Origin: Chthonomonas sp.
GTDB taxonomy: Bacteria; Armatimonadota; Fimbriimonadia; Fimbriimonadales; Fimbriimonadaceae
NCBI GenBank assembly: GCA_016788585.1
Contig: JAEURP010000011.1
Span: 62,001 to 126,000 of the forward strand
DNA: 64,000 nucleotides
Direction of reading: 5' to 3'
In this document: positions 16,240 through 22,649 of the stretch, piece by piece
Layout: every line of letters begins with the position of its first letter
Position numbering within the stretch: the first letter of the stretch is position 1
Notes under the pieces: model-generated
Seen by the model: the letters and a program-made list of their open reading frames with translations, nothing else
What the model was told of the DNA's origin: nothing
The model's database searches: none
Program-made: the position numbers and the translations under genes

Positions 16240-18051
16240 CTAGCGCTTTAGCACAAACTTGCGCTTGGTCTTGTCGAATCCTTGCTCGACTTTCTTCGCA
16301 TCGTAGTGCCAGACCGGCGAGCCCGAGCGTTGATAGAAGCAAGCGTAGCTGCTCAGCAACGAGGCAACCAGTCGTCGGCTGACGCGGCGAACCACATTGA
16401 CTTCCCACAGCAGGGTGAGGAAGTCCGCGCCCTTCGGCCAGTGGCTCATCACTTCGCGTACGACATCGAATGTTGAAAGTCCTTCGCTTCGACCTTGGAG
16501 CTCTCGAAGCTCTTCCATGCGTTGGCTTGTAATGAAAACTACCGGATCGGTTTGATCAAGCCAAGCGAATTCGAACACGTTTGCCTTCGGCGTGCTCGTC
16601 AAGCTGAAAACCGCGCCGGACTCGACTGGCTGCTCATAGAACCAATCGATAAAGCCAAAGAGAAGGCGATCTTCCATGTTTGCCCACACCTGAAGCTCGC
16701 GCCCATCTCGATCCTGCAGGATGATTTCTTGGTGCTTGGGCTCATTTGGAACCCAGCCCAGAGGAATCTGGCAAAGCGGGAAGGTCCCGAGTTCTCGGTG
16801 CGTCGACTTCAGCACGCAACGAATGGACTCTGGCAATTGCTTTGGTACGGTACTGATGTCTTCGTCGTTTACATCCATCGCCAATGGGTGGTTCAGGAGC
16901 TTGCGAAGGGTCGAGCTGAGGCCGTCATCGTTGAGTTCGGCATCAACAAATTCTCCTTCTTCATCCTTAACATCCGTCTGTTCGAAATTGAAGAAGTCCT
17001 TGATCGTGTCGACAATCTCGGGTACGACGCCAGGCTTATTGAAGCGATCACCGCCAACCCACAAGACTTCCTTGCGGGCTTTGAGGGCTTCCATGAGGCC
17101 AGCCATGTCATCGGGGAAGGTCTTTACGGTTGGGGTGATTTCGTAGAACTCTTCGAGAAGCTTTGTCGCGGTCACGCTGCCCTCGGCGGCAACAATCTTC
17201 TTGACCATTTTGTCCACATCTCCGGTCTTAACTTCAATCGGCGCAGCGTCTTCAATCTCGACGCTTGGTGCAAGCTTGTCGGCAACCTTGATCGCCGTGC
17301 TTAGCCACTTCTTGGTTTGGTCGGCGGGGTAAAGAATTCCATCGGGAGAGTACACAAAACCGTCCGTCGAGAAGAGAATCTCGTTGAATTTCTTCCAATC
17401 GTATTCAAGGAATGCGTGCGCGTCTTGTGGGTTCAGGGCACGGAATGCGACCGCGCCAAAGAGCTTCGTACTTACTGGAGCGGCCTTTTCTAGAGCGGCT
17501 CGAATGGACTTCTCATTTCTGAAATCGGTACCAGCGAGTTTCTTACTGAGAGCGTCGACGTCATCTGCGTTGAGACCATGGAGTTCGAAAGCTGTTGCCT
17601 CTGGCTCGTCGCTTGCCGCAAAAACCCATGACTTCAGGAACAGCCTCTTGCCATCGGTGAGTCCGATTTGGGAGCTATTGGTGATGACGCGGATAGCTTG
17701 CTCCTCGTTGGCTTCAGGCTGCGTAATGCTGAGCTCATTTACGACCAAGCTAAGCGGCATTGGACCACCAAAGCGATCTACGATCAGGCGGATTTGCTCG
17801 GCAAATGGTCTACCTGCGCCTTCAAGTCTTGCCGCGGGCATCCATCGGCGCTCATTGTAAGCGAACTTGTTTGGATTAGAAGCCAGGAGGGAACGCACTT
17901 CAGCGAGGCCAAGTCCTTCTTTGCTCAATCGGTCTGCAATTTCGCTTAGCTTGACGACGTTTTGGAGCTCGGACAATTGGGCTAAGATCAAGCGATCGGC
18001 GTATTCGCGGGCGATTTGTTCTTCTGGGTTAATTGCGGTGGTTTTGGCCAA
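16240..18051 (-). CDS. 603-residue protein with winged-helix-like repeats, unknown
   Basis: No signal peptide or membrane segment; acidic and mostly helical. The N-terminal part (about 15-95) reads like winged-helix modules of the HARE-HTH type (LSELQNVVKLSEIADRLSKEGLGLAEVRSLL, then IRLIVDRFGGPMPLSLVVNELS), and comparable units seem to recur near 110-150 and 275-350. The C-terminal half has alternating charged and aromatic segments and ends with a basic KTKRKFVLKR tail. I recognise no catalytic motif. It could be a DNA- or RNA-binding scaffold. It precedes rpsT at 29 bp and may share a transcript. Confidence 0.75.
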   Translation of the reverse strand: MAKTTAINPEEQIAREYADRLILAQLSELQNVVKLSEIADRLSKEGLGLAEVRSLLASNPNKFAYNERRWMPAARLEGAGRPFAEQIRLIVDRFGGPMPLSLVVNELSITQPEANEEQAIRVITNSSQIGLTDGKRLFLKSWVFAASDEPEATAFELHGLNADDVDALSKKLAGTDFRNEKSIRAALEKAAPVSTKLFGAVAFRALNPQDAHAFLEYDWKKFNEILFSTDGFVYSPDGILYPADQTKKWLSTAIKVADKLAPSVEIEDAAPIEVKTGDVDKMVKKIVAAEGSVTATKLLEEFYEITPTVKTFPDDMAGLMEALKARKEVLWVGGDRFNKPGVVPEIVDTIKDFFNFEQTDVKDEEGEFVDAELNDDGLSSTLRKLLNHPLAMDVNDEDISTVPKQLPESIRCVLKSTHRELGTFPLCQIPLGWVPNEPKHQEIILQDRDGRELQVWANMEDRLLFGFIDWFYEQPVESGAVFSLTSTPKANVFEFAWLDQTDPVVFITSQRMEELRELQGRSEGLSTFDVVREVMSHWPKGADFLTLLWEVNVVRRVSRRLVASLLSSYACFYQRSGSPVWHYDAKKVEQGFDKTKRKFVLKR

Positions 18052-18107: not shown

Positions 18108-19067
18108 TTAAACGCTACCTGTCGGCATGACGACAAACTGCCGATAAACGCGGCGCTGCGCAGCGCTGAGCGGTAGCCGAGCAATCTCTTCGGCCGTCTT
18201 CCAATCTTCAAATTCCTGGTCTCGCACGTCCTGGACTCGCAGCTTAATGCGGTGATGGGTGATAACATGGCGTATCTCACCGATGACCTCGCCGCTCCAT
18301 GGTTCTTCTCGGGTCGGAAACTCCCACATGCCACCAGCCCATTCACTGGATGCCGTTTGACGTATGGCATATGATCCCATTCGCCGACAAAGCGCGGCGT
18401 ATCGGATCAACTCCACGCTTTCTTTTTTCACTTTCGGAACTGGATATTGCAGGGGGTTCTCCTTTCCCTTGCACTGACTCTCAATTGGGCAGGTCGAGCA
18501 GCTGGCTTCTCGAGGGCGACACACTCGTGCTCCCAACTCCATTAGCGCCTGATTCCACTCTCCGGGTGCCTCTTTAAACACGACCCCGTTGGCCCAGCCT
18601 CTAGCTAGATTGGCAAGTTTCGGCAATTCCGCATTCGAGCCCATTAGGCGCGCATAGACGCGATGAACATTGCCGTCCACGGCCGGCACGGCCTCGCCGA
18701 GACAGATAGAGGCGATTGCACCAGCCGTGTACATGCCAACTCCAGGAACCTTGAGCCACTCCGAATAGCTTTTTGGGAAGCCGTGCTCGACAATCCATTG
18801 GGCACCCCGATGCAAGTTCCGGGCACGTTGGTAGTATCCGAGGCCGGCCCAAAGCCCCAAAACGTCTTGCACATCGGCCTTCGCCAAATGGTGAACGGTC
18901 GGAAGTTTCTCGAGCCAACGTTCCCAATACGGTATGACCGTCGCCACCTGAGTTTGCTGGCACATCACCTCGCTAAGCCAGATCGCATACGGGTCTTTTG
19001 TGCGACGCCAAGGCAGGTCTCGCCCTTCGGCTCGGTACCAAGCTAATAACTCATTTTGAAAGTTCAG
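18108..19067 (-). CDS. mutY: A/G-specific adenine glycosylase MutY (CTG start)
   Basis: 319 residues. MutY removes adenine opposite 8-oxoguanine. In-frame sequence upstream of the first standard start (GTG 18968) encodes an excellent MutY N-terminus (FQNELLAWYRAEGRDLPWR, KDPYAIWLSE), including the catalytic Glu33 just before VMCQQTQVATVIPYWERW. No ATG, GTG or TTG lies in frame upstream of it before a stop at about 19120, but a CTG at 19067 gives exactly the expected length and overlaps the pyrF stop as CTGA. The helix-hairpin-helix VPGVGMYTAGA with Asp in AVDGNVHRVYAR, and the 4Fe-4S ligands C-x6-C-x2-C-x5-C, follow; then the NUDIX-like C-terminal domain. Confidence 0.92.
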   Translation of the reverse strand: MNFQNELLAWYRAEGRDLPWRRTKDPYAIWLSEVMCQQTQVATVIPYWERWLEKLPTVHHLAKADVQDVLGLWAGLGYYQRARNLHRGAQWIVEHGFPKSYSEWLKVPGVGMYTAGAIASICLGEAVPAVDGNVHRVYARLMGSNAELPKLANLARGWANGVVFKEAPGEWNQALMELGARVCRPREASCSTCPIESQCKGKENPLQYPVPKVKKESVELIRYAALCRRMGSYAIRQTASSEWAGGMWEFPTREEPWSGEVIGEIRHVITHHRIKLRVQDVRDQEFEDWKTAEEIARLPLSAAQRRVYRQFVVMPTGSV

Positions 19068-19780
19068 TGGCTGCCTGCCACGTCGTAGAGTTCGTAGTCT
19101 GCAAGGGTACGCGCCGGATCATCGCTTGCCATCAGACCCCGCCCAATCACCAAATAGTCGGCACCGTCAGCAATCGCTTGCTGCCCCGTTCCCGTCCGGC
19201 TGTGATCGTGGGTGCTTTGGTCAGGACGCCGAATGCCTGGGGTCACTACTACGCCGTGACCGATCGCCTTACGGATGTCTTTAACTTCTTCCGGGCTCGA
19301 CACGACCCCATCCATTCCGCAATCTACAGCCAATTTGCTCAAGTAGGCCATGTGCTCGGGAACCGAGCGATTGGTGCCCAAATGGTCGGTTAGAATGTGC
19401 TGATTGAGTGACGTAAGTACGCTTACCGCCAGGAGAATCGGCTGCAATTCCTCGCTATGCGTTCGTGCTTCTTCCACGGCCGCCGTCATCATCGCTGGTC
19501 CGCCAGAGGCATGAAGGGTCATCATCCAAACGCCATGCCGCGTCGCTTCACGTACTGCCAGAGCGACAGAATTTGGAATGTCGTGAAACTTAAGGTCGAG
19601 AAAGATGCGTTGGGCTCCGGCTTCGCGCAGCGTTTCGATAACCCCAAGTCCGTGTGGCAGGGTGAGCGCATGCCCGACCTTGAACCCTCCAACGTACGGA
19701 CTAAGTCGCCTGATCGCATCGACTGCATCAGCGACACTGCTTGTATCTAAAGCACAGATGACTTTTCTCTGAATTCCCAT
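19064..19780 (-). CDS. pyrF: orotidine 5'-phosphate decarboxylase
   Basis: 238 residues. PyrF makes UMP from OMP, the last step of de novo pyrimidine synthesis. The N-terminal VICALDTSS strand, FKVGHALTLPHG, the catalytic DLKFHDIPN (D-x-K-x2-D) motif and the C-terminal VVTPGIRRP and ADYLVIGRGLMASDDP phosphate-binding loops are complete. It is followed by mutY through a CTGA overlap. Confidence 0.96.
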   Translation of the reverse strand: MGIQRKVICALDTSSVADAVDAIRRLSPYVGGFKVGHALTLPHGLGVIETLREAGAQRIFLDLKFHDIPNSVALAVREATRHGVWMMTLHASGGPAMMTAAVEEARTHSEELQPILLAVSVLTSLNQHILTDHLGTNRSVPEHMAYLSKLAVDCGMDGVVSSPEEVKDIRKAIGHGVVVTPGIRRPDQSTHDHSRTGTGQQAIADGADYLVIGRGLMASDDPARTLADYELYDVAGSH

Positions 19781-19830: not shown

Positions 19831-21264
19831 ATGATTCTCCACGAGGAGCTACTGATCGATGGCCTGTTTGTGGGCGGCCCGTGCGATACGTCCATTGCAA
19901 AGCAGATCGCTACCTCACCCTACGATGGCTCGCGGGTCGGGGTTGCCGCCGAAGGGACTTGGTCAGAAGCCGACGCAGCCCTACAGGCTTCCACTCGGGC
20001 CTTCTTAAAGTGGTCGCGGACTCCTCGCCAAGATCGTCAGGGGCTCATTCTCGCCTGCGCTGAGGCCATTCAGAAGCACAAGGCAGAACTCTGCGAACTG
20101 ATGGCGCTTGAGATTGGAAAACCCATCGACGTCGGCAGCGCAGAGATTGACAGGGCCGTAATCACGTTTAAGCTCGCTGCCAAATTTTTGGAAGAACCGG
20201 AATGGACTTCGATAGATGTCTCCTACGATGTCCGCTCTGCTGGAGCAACGGTCGAATCGCGGCGCGAAGCGATCGGTCCAGTCCTTTGCATCACTCCCTT
20301 CAATTGGCCCATTAACCTCGCTGCTCACAAAATAGCTCCTGCACTAGCGGCTGGAAACACCGTGATTCTCAAAGGCTCGGAGCAAGCTTCGCTTTGCACG
20401 TTACGGCTGGCGAGAATTCTTCAATCGGTGGGGCTACCAAATGGCGTGCTAAATGCGCTGAACTGCGAACCTGAAACTACAGAACGGATGGCATTGGACG
20501 CCCGTGTAAAGATGGTCTCATTTACCGGATCCGAGCGTATCGGCTGGCAACTCAAAGAAAAGTGCTGGAACAAGAGAGTGAGCCTCGAACTTGGGGGTAC
20601 GGCTTCCATCTATGTCCACAACGACGTCGATGTGTCTGGCCTGGCCGAGCAGATCGCAAAGAGCGCTTTTGGTTACGCAGGGCAGACCTGCATTTCGGCC
20701 CAAAATGTCTATATCCACTTCGATGTTTACGATGCGTTGCGAGAAGGCCTGATTCAGGCTACAAACGGCTTGGCAGCCGGCGACCCCAGAAAATCAGGAG
20801 TCATCTGTGGGCCCGTAATCAGCAAAAGCGCAGCTGAGCGGATCGAAACTTGGGTGAATGGTTCGGGAGGCAAAGTAATCGCTGGTGGAGGCCGTACAAA
20901 AACCCTGCTTCAACCCACGTTGCTCGAATCACCAAATCCGAACTCAGATGCGGTAGCACAGGAAATCTTTGGACCCGTACTGAACTTGCAACGCGTGGAT
21001 GTGCCTAGTATGGCAATGGTGGAACTTGCCCGCTCTCAGTACGGCATTCACCATTCGATATTCACGAAGTCCAACGATCTCGTGGACCAATTCTTGAAGT
21101 TCGTATCATGCGGCGGACTGATCGTCAATGATGTGCCCACTCTCCGTTTCGACGCCATGCCGTATGGCGGAGTTAAGCGCAGCGGCTTTGGGCGGGAGGG
21201 GGTCCGCTATGCAATCGAAGAAATGACCGAATTACGAGCGGTGGTTCGGCGAGACTTACCTTGA
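19831..21264 (+). CDS. NAD(P)-dependent aldehyde dehydrogenase
   Basis: 477 residues. ALDH superfamily: ITPFNWPINLAAHKIAPALAAGNTVILK cofactor region, SFTGSERIGW, catalytic Glu253 in LELGGTAS and catalytic Cys287 in GQTCISAQNVYIH, and a C-terminal MPYGGVKRSGFGREG segment. Substrate cannot be read; the shape is that of glyceraldehyde-3-phosphate, lactaldehyde or related small-aldehyde members. The next gene starts 24 bp later, so they may be co-transcribed. Confidence 0.93.
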   Translation: MILHEELLIDGLFVGGPCDTSIAKQIATSPYDGSRVGVAAEGTWSEADAALQASTRAFLKWSRTPRQDRQGLILACAEAIQKHKAELCELMALEIGKPIDVGSAEIDRAVITFKLAAKFLEEPEWTSIDVSYDVRSAGATVESRREAIGPVLCITPFNWPINLAAHKIAPALAAGNTVILKGSEQASLCTLRLARILQSVGLPNGVLNALNCEPETTERMALDARVKMVSFTGSERIGWQLKEKCWNKRVSLELGGTASIYVHNDVDVSGLAEQIAKSAFGYAGQTCISAQNVYIHFDVYDALREGLIQATNGLAAGDPRKSGVICGPVISKSAAERIETWVNGSGGKVIAGGGRTKTLLQPTLLESPNPNSDAVAQEIFGPVLNLQRVDVPSMAMVELARSQYGIHHSIFTKSNDLVDQFLKFVSCGGLIVNDVPTLRFDAMPYGGVKRSGFGREGVRYAIEEMTELRAVVRRDLP

Positions 21265-21287
21265 TCTCGGTACAACCAAGAGGCGTA

Positions 21288-22649
21288 ATGAAGGTCACTC
21301 ATGTTTCAATTCAACCCACTGAAGCAGCACAAAATGCCGGGCGTCCTTCCTTAACCCCCGAGCTTCTGGCAGCCAGCGGCGCCCGATACAGCCGCAACAA
21401 CGAAGGCTTGGAGTCGATCCTCGCCAAGATAGACCCACAGAACCTCGACAAGTCGGTCGATGGAATCTTTCGGATGATCGACTATGGGCACCAGTCCATT
21501 GCCGACATGGCACCGATTGCGATGTTCATGGATGGCATTACCATGTGGCTAGCCTATCTGGTCTGGTCGCAGGTGCCCACGGCAGGAGGGCAAGAATCAA
21601 GCACTCGCTACCTAAAACTCGCGATTAGCGATCTCCCAAGCGCCGACGATCTTGAAATCCCAGTTGCTCATCACGGCGAATGGAATGACCTTATGACCCG
21701 AAGTATGGAGGGCTATGAGGCCGCCTATCGAGTTTGGGAGAACTTTGCGGAATCCAACCCAGAAGCTACGCGCATTCCCAAAGGGCTCATAGAAGACCCT
21801 AGTGATAAGGCCCAAAAGCAGGTCGCAAGGATGAGAAGGAACTTCGCCTTCGATCGAGCCCGCTACCTTCTTCCAGTGGCATTGCGCACGAACATGATGC
21901 TGGTAATGTCGGCTCGTGGCTGGGTCCAATTGACGCAGTGGCTCCTTAGTCACTACTTGCCTGAAGCCAACCACCTCGGTCGCCTGATCGTGGGTGAGCT
22001 CGGACTTTCGGCACCTCGGCTACTTCGCCATGCAACCGAGAAGGACTCCATCGTTAAGGGGCATCTAGACGAATTGGCTGCGCTTAGCTCTTTTTCCACG
22101 ACTCAACCAGAAGTTGGCGTCAGCATTTTGATGCCAAGTGGGGCCAGCAACGCCGATCTAGCGGACTCGTTGCGCCACCACGATAACCGCTATGCTTACT
22201 TCGGCGAGGCGATTCGGCGCACTGCAGTTCGGGTCGCTTGGCCCAAGATGGCCTTTGCCGAGATTCGTGACTTGAACCGCCACCGAACGGGAACCAAGTA
22301 TTGCCCGCCGCTCGGCCTCGGATTCTATGGAGCAGAAGACCAGTTTCCAACTGCCCTGACCGAGGAGCTTTCGGACTTGCTAAGGATCGGCGCAGAAGTC
22401 ACACAGCGAGGCATCGAACTGGCAAAAGGCGGTTTCCATGCATTTCCGTACTTCTACGTGCTTGGAACCGAGTTCTACTTTGAGCATACGATGACGGCAG
22501 ACAAGTTCGTGTATGAATCCGAGTTACGCACAGGGACCGGGGCTCACTACCGCTATGCGGACCAAATGCGCGAAGCCTTAGCGAAATGGTACGAACAGGT
22601 TCCCGAAACGAAGGGCCTCATCCTAGAAGGCTCCGCTGAGCCAGAGTAA
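21288..22649 (+). CDS. tandem ThyX-like (flavin-dependent thymidylate synthase family) protein
   Basis: 453 residues from the ATG at 21288, which has AAGAGG upstream. The protein is two ThyX-like halves. The first (about 25-240) has GHQSIADMAPI and QESSTRYLKL, resembling the xEH and S-x-R-Y part of the flavin/dUMP signature, but the RHR triplet is lost. The second (about 260-440) keeps RHR (331-333, LNRHRTGTKY) but has no S-x-R-Y. Each half also resembles the ThyX C-terminal region (ARYLLPVALRTNMML; YVLGTEFYFEHTM with AHYRYADQMREAL). ThyX makes dTMP with FAD and methylene-THF. Whether this version is active is open. It follows the aldehyde dehydrogenase. Confidence 0.8.
   Translation: MKVTHVSIQPTEAAQNAGRPSLTPELLAASGARYSRNNEGLESILAKIDPQNLDKSVDGIFRMIDYGHQSIADMAPIAMFMDGITMWLAYLVWSQVPTAGGQESSTRYLKLAISDLPSADDLEIPVAHHGEWNDLMTRSMEGYEAAYRVWENFAESNPEATRIPKGLIEDPSDKAQKQVARMRRNFAFDRARYLLPVALRTNMMLVMSARGWVQLTQWLLSHYLPEANHLGRLIVGELGLSAPRLLRHATEKDSIVKGHLDELAALSSFSTTQPEVGVSILMPSGASNADLADSLRHHDNRYAYFGEAIRRTAVRVAWPKMAFAEIRDLNRHRTGTKYCPPLGLGFYGAEDQFPTALTEELSDLLRIGAEVTQRGIELAKGGFHAFPYFYVLGTEFYFEHTMTADKFVYESELRTGTGAHYRYADQMREALAKWYEQVPETKGLILEGSAEPE

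Follow-up and report, generated by a model that had tools for sequence, protein, structure and literature searches.

The gene for the A/G-specific adenine glycosylase MutY follows the orotidine-5'-phosphate decarboxylase gene pyrF on the minus strand of the window, by which we mean the whole stretch of 64,000 nucleotides that was analysed. The final codons of pyrF are AGC CAC TGA, and a CTG codon (19067-19065) overlaps the pyrF stop codon TGA (19066-19064), the junction being read as CTGA. From this CTG to a TAA at 18110-18108, the mutY frame encodes 319 residues beginning LNFQNELLAWYRAEGRDLPWRRTKDPYAIWLSEVMCQQTQ. The features of the locus are the following:

18108..19067, minus strand: mutY coding sequence, A/G-specific adenine glycosylase, 319 aa, from CTG to TAA (profile and structure matches)
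19065..19067, minus strand: CTG, probable start of mutY, kept in the congeners G001 and G004; TTG in the congener G002
19064..19066, minus strand: TGA, stop codon of pyrF, overlapping the CTG (sequence)
18969..18971, minus strand: GAG, Glu33 of MutY, within the stretch aligned to solved MutY chains
18966..18968, minus strand: GTG, codon 34, first conventional start, with a 286-aa product that would lack Glu33; both near congeners have GTC
19064..19780, minus strand: pyrF, orotidine-5'-phosphate decarboxylase, upstream gene, probably coupled to mutY (profile matches)
19071..19087, minus strand: stretch 4-20 bases ahead of the CTG with weak Shine-Dalgarno-like pairing (duplex predicted at -5.5 kcal/mol)

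Ahead of the CTG, the mutY frame is closed by a stop at a distance of 17 codons, and between this stop and GTG 18968 there is no in-frame ATG, GTG, or TTG; a start upstream of the CTG was thus rejected. Because the GTG is the codon directly after Glu33, a conventional call drops this residue by one codon. A sequence-only reading of the window had placed Glu33 and about 33 residues of MutY sequence upstream of the first ATG, GTG, or TTG, had proposed CTG 19067 as a start that overlaps the pyrF stop, and had expected annotation from the conventional GTG to yield a MutY without its catalytic Glu. These points are borne out by GTG 18968 being the first such codon, by the sequence together with two congeners that carry the same CTGA, and by the place of the GTG right behind Glu33, respectively. 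Translation from the CTG would give the predicted N-terminus MNFQNELLAWY..., with Glu33 intact. The window genome contains one mutY match.

In a profile search, the protein matched the HhH-GPD domain (PF00730, 2e-21), the HhH motif (PF00633, 2.4e-7), and the NUDIX-like C-terminal domain (NUDIX_4, PF14815, 36.1 bits vs a cut-off of 35). The best of the five models matching the protein is TIGR01084 (mutY), with a score of 280.8 bits for the complete protein and 229.1 bits when the first 33 residues are removed. The equivalog cut-off of 286.5, which is a score threshold and not a biological feature, is missed by 5.7 bits with the full N-terminus and is also missed without it. Solved MutY chains align with the protein from residue 2 onwards and also cover Glu33, which is part of the protein if translation begins at the CTG and which we take to be the catalytic Glu of MutY in the motif SEVMxQQT. 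On the basis of its domains, Glu33, and the matches to solved structures, the protein was classified as MutY. As a side observation, position 1 of the NCBIfam model NF010488 (PRK13910) aligns with residue 34 of the window MutY, and this model may therefore itself have been built on MutY proteins whose annotated start cuts off the catalytic Glu.

Five genomes of the genus were searched and mutY was found in four of them. The sequence-only reading had called for a comparison with orthologues, and this comparison shows CTGA at the homologous place in G001 and G004 (both with 61% MutY identity to the window) and TTGA in the remaining congener with mutY, G002 (46%). The window genome, G001, and G004, which are draft assemblies of 27, 250, and 120 contigs, form a CTG clade in which the non-canonical start codon is conserved; because G001 and G004 are close to each other, the three genomes amount to about two independent lines. 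Between the window and G001, 26 of the 33 residues that follow the CTG agree and 13 codons differ silently, compared to agreement at 5 of the 17 residues before the CTG in the mutY frame, where pyrF is encoded in another frame. From the aligned sequences we conclude that the stretch before GTG 18968 is translated and that protein-level constraint in the mutY frame sets in at about the CTG. GTG 18968 was rejected as a start because the two near congeners do not share it, both having GTC at codon 34.

The conservation of the C in the CTG was also considered as proof of selection. CTGA is kept in all three clade genomes, while the four-fold sites of pyrF are equal in only 24 of 83 cases between the window and G001, which puts the silent sites of pyrF near saturation. 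Moreover, if the pyrF codon CAC changed silently to CAT, a TTG would replace the CTG, and none of the three genomes has CAT. Among the C-ending two-fold codons of pyrF, however, C is retained in 12 of 19 (window vs G001) and 11 of 20 (window vs G004). Since 12 of 19 comparable codons keep their C anyway, the kept C does not prove selection and this argument was dropped.

Other codons near the junction were examined as starts as well. ATG 19054 was rejected as it is out of frame (ATG AGT TAT TAG) and absent from G001 and G004, and the CTG at codon 18 was discarded as it is not kept in the congeners. Codon 29 is ATC in the window and ATT in both congeners, and thus ATN in all three, but it encodes the conserved Ile of YAIW and a start at this place would cost 28 residues. 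An in-frame TTG at codon 7 of G004 would retain Glu33 and is absent from the window and G001. Taken together, mutY of the window genome very probably starts at CTG 19067, as judged from the sequence comparisons.

Readings without a CTG start have to be weighed against this. Given that GTG 18968 is the first conventional start, only the 286-aa form might be made, with mutY decaying or its glycosylase activity lost. Yet the stretch preceding the GTG is constrained at the protein level, the congeners carry GTC at codon 34, and the HhH-GPD, HHH, and NUDIX_4 matches are retained, which together leave this reading highly improbable. A PyrF-MutY fusion through -1 frameshifting at the pyrF stop would draw on the -1 position of the mutY frame relative to pyrF and on its being free of stops over the 17 codons ahead of the CTG. 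Sites of -1 frameshifting typically carry a slippery heptamer, however, and none was seen by eye before the stop (AGC CAC TGA). Furthermore, there are pairs in the family with ATGA, GTGA, or TTGA at this position or close to it, as fits a start, and in other relatives the pyrF end lies further away or no pyrF was found upstream, so that we give the fusion just as little credence. A normal start masked by an assembly or sequencing error finds some ground in the draft state of the three clade genomes, but the CTGA is identical in all three assemblies, the MutY of G001 and G004 being 61% identical to that of the window, and such an error is hardly believable. The sequence-only reading had itself named a sequencing error at 19067, or a normal start further upstream combined with a frameshift, as what would speak against the CTG; neither was seen, and a sequencing error or an upstream start is unlikely.

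The start of mutY was further surveyed across the Fimbriimonadaceae, a family of the phylum Armatimonadota (85 genomes, 76 loci examined). Genomes without a match (G003, G024, and G061), with a gene cut near a contig end (G034 and G086), or with weak partial matches only (G089, G096, G097, and G100) were left out. A locus was considered to have a conventional start if an ATG, GTG, or TTG was present within 45 codons upstream and 5 codons downstream of the position of the window CTG. In nine of the 76 loci (window, G001, G004, G067, G068, G080, G018, G021, and G035) no usable ATG, GTG, or TTG was present. These comprise the window clade with CTG, a second clade with ATC, a single genome with ATT, and two unclear cases (G021 and G035). 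In the second clade (G067, G068, and G080; loci L043, L101, and L099), the gene upstream of mutY matches glycosyltransferase families and its stop codon lies in the mutY frame. The nearest candidate there is an ATC three bases after the upstream stop (ATC CAA), with an additional ATC directly after the stop in G068; readthrough of the stop codon is a rival to the ATC start in these three genomes. The G018 locus has an ATT that shares bases with the stop of pyrF (ATTAG), and a CTG lies nine codons further up. G021 has either a CTG nine bases after the pyrF stop, preceded by AGGGG, or a TTG at codon 8. In G035 (L006, ~1470-1500), a strong Shine-Dalgarno sequence (GGGGAGG, predicted -12.5 kcal/mol) is found with no NTG or ATN codon near it, and the start would be GTC or AGG, reminiscent of the GTC of sigR.

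On the MutY tree, the nine rows need five state changes (4-5 on the bootstrap trees), at least two of which are required by well-supported branches. Support is full for both the CTG clade and the ATC clade, while the bootstrap has not settled and many deep forks are open. Judging from these sequences, the relatives seem to have evolved similarly weak mutY starts more than once. Of the 57 loci with a same-strand pyrF, 23 carry an NTGA in the mutY frame, either directly at the expected start or close to it (TTG in nine, CTG in six, GTG in five, and ATG in three), and in three of the six CTGA loci a GTG lies no more than four codons away. When the range was set from 12 codons before to 5 codons after the expected start and one partial mutY locus was left out, an ATG was available in 23 of 75 mutY loci, compared to 50 of 56 for pyrF, 17 of 29 for glmM, and 24 of 30 for kdsB, and 13 of the 75 mutY loci had no conventional start in that range. 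The mutY starts of the Fimbriimonadaceae are thus weak in general.

None of the 112 control loci (53 pyrF, 29 glmM, and 30 kdsB) lacked a conventional start. For pyrF, four edge loci and one partial locus were dropped to obtain 53, including L028 from a sister family. The glmM and kdsB loci were the best 30 of 84 and the best 30 of 79 matched genomes, respectively, and therefore lean toward near relatives; L209 of glmM was dropped for masked bases. The difference between mutY (9/76) and the controls (0/112) corresponds to a Fisher p of 0.0002, which becomes 0.0015 without the two unclear genomes (7/76), 0.008 with the two clades collapsed (5/72), and 0.055 when the three clear origins only are counted (3/70). 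The infC gene for initiation factor IF3 was included as positive control. Among its best 30 of 79 loci, the window genome included, 19 lack a conventional start, and in all 19 an ATA occupies the same position, preceded by GAGGTGA or a sequence close to it. The infC of the window genome (L150, G000:C18:184490-184984; the other family infC loci are L152-L180) is one of these, with ATA behind GAGGTGA and a predicted Shine-Dalgarno pairing of -11.8 kcal/mol. The recurrence of non-canonical mutY starts in the Fimbriimonadaceae and the conserved ATA start of their infC go beyond what the sequence-only reading had described.

Within the window, 34 genes were scanned, of which 20 entered the start test after exclusion of nine without a match and five with a partial one; in 19 of the 20, a conventional start coincides with the beginning of the profile match or precedes it, mutY being the exception. 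In other families of the order, from which 20 mutY loci of 19 genomes were fetched, a conventional start is present in all 19 evaluable loci, L147 being cut by a contig end. In another set of 52 mutY loci, five belong to the family; of the 47 from outside it, 46 have a conventional start in the range tested, and the exception is L052 from a Myxococcales MAG.

The CTG start is well supported; coupling, low output, and control by IF3 are what we infer beyond it. A ribosome that ends PyrF at the UGA would be left with the CUG at hand and could reinitiate there, which we consider likely from the arrangement of the two genes. fMet would be placed at the CUG by the ordinary initiator tRNA. As the CUG is a poor start that would be disfavoured by IF3, MutY would be made at a small fraction of PyrF; this IF3-limited low output is a more tentative suggestion, the sensitivity to IF3 being deduced from the codon type only.

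In termination-reinitiation pairs, stop and start overlap or are separated by a few bases on the same strand, as is the case for pyrF and mutY with CTGA. In archaea as well as in bacteria, overlapping stops and starts have been described to support termination-reinitiation (PMC6728339). In the initiator tRNA that was found in the window genome, the anticodon stem shows, by eye, the three G-C pairs that are usual for it. In this comparison, which covered the initiator tRNA alone, an altered initiator was thus rejected and a special tRNA is not called for. The Shine-Dalgarno pairing before the CTG is ordinary (-5.5 kcal/mol vs a median of -4.0 kcal/mol for the closest conventional starts in 67 mutY loci of the family) and unremarkable compared to the strong ones at the infC ATA; strong Shine-Dalgarno sequences are also described for the non-canonical start cases of S. 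aureus (PMC13009471). In cryo-EM complexes of CUG with the initiator tRNA variant M1, the first pair is reported as too wide for strong pairing (PMC11497404), and by analogy the CUG of mutY is expected to pair poorly at its first position. In E. coli, excess IF3 lowers reinitiation in the absence of a Shine-Dalgarno sequence (PMC2268962), for which reason the MutY output could be very low. From the CUG pairing, the literature on IF3 and on overlaps, and the 23 of 57 loci with NTGA, we infer low-level reinitiation at the CUG.

Whether low MutY would also be favoured by selection is a separate matter. The CTG might serve as start only because coupling relaxes the constraint on the start codon, with no selection for low MutY; this competes with a selective reading and not with the CTG start itself. 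In line with relaxed constraint, the C is kept about as often as comparable silent positions (12/19), and the CTG, ATC, and ATT cases lie at junctions where the two genes overlap or adjoin. That mutY has repeatedly departed from ATG (ATG in 23/75 vs 50/56 for pyrF) suggests a gene-specific cause instead, although relaxed coupling could likewise produce it. We regard relaxed constraint as evenly balanced between true and false, and low MutY may about equally well be tolerated as selected. That selection in the Fimbriimonadaceae keeps MutY low by repeated start swaps (CUG, AUC, AUU, and perhaps GUC or AGG), often at junctions, appears rather unlikely to us; if true, base-excision repair and the mutation rate would follow the IF3 level and the translation of the upstream gene. 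Selected weak starts would thereby tie a gene for the mutation rate to the fidelity of initiation.

Non-canonical starts as such are already known, and their recurrence in one gene of one family is the unusual part. The closest precedent is infC with its AUU, AUC, or AUA starts and IF3 autoregulation (PMC5472188, PMC13009471), which shares with mutY a start other than ATG, GTG, or TTG; the infC start is disfavoured by IF3, as that of mutY would be. However, the infC ATA stands behind a strong Shine-Dalgarno sequence, whereas the mutY CTG overlaps a stop codon behind a weak one, and MutY, unlike IF3, has no role in initiation. The IF3-repressed GTC start of Streptomyces sigR is described to keep an oxidative-stress protein low and, as would be expected for that of mutY, is misplaced by gene finders (PMC5472188). 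In contrast to mutY, a repair gene at the downstream position, sigR is the upstream gene of its pair and has a strong ribosome-binding site (PMC5472188). In S. aureus, cvfC1 (AUU) and ccpN (AUA) have conserved non-canonical starts as mutY does, and their reporters reached ~10% of AUG in poor medium (PMC13009471); they differ by extended Shine-Dalgarno motifs, and an overlapping stop is not mentioned in the accessible part of that source (PMC13009471).

The pyrF-mutY junction further resembles the co-directed AUGA and UGAUG pairs with termination-reinitiation and a 4-nt overlap of stop and start (PMC6728339, PMC10666635). The text of PMC6728339, as far as it was available, names AUGA and UGAUG, and GUGA, UUGA, and CUGA (or their spellings with T) are absent from that part. 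In a reconstruction from close genomes, a change of start to CUG was reported for 2 of 61,358 AUG, 1 of 5,080 GUG, and 1 of 2,468 UUG starts of the ancestral state (PMC5622118). PMC4648390 deals with Xenopus oocytes and was set aside as a comparison. Among the matches listed for titles and abstracts of open-licence PMC articles, no report of a bacterial mutY with a non-canonical start was found, and very few non-canonical start codons are said to have been characterised experimentally (PMC5472188). A repair enzyme seems to use CUG in the window genome, and AUC or AUU in relatives. If ATG, GTG, and TTG were the only starts allowed, annotation would report a MutY lacking the catalytic Glu, and the repair capacity of the organism would be misjudged.

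Two other genes of the window may be mentioned here. Directly downstream of mutY, positions 16240-18051 encode a 603-aa protein with a TTG start and zero NCBIfam matches. The 462-aa protein encoded at 21261-22649 has a weak ThyX match (29.8 bits vs a cut-off of 87.9) and is about twice as long as the ThyX model.
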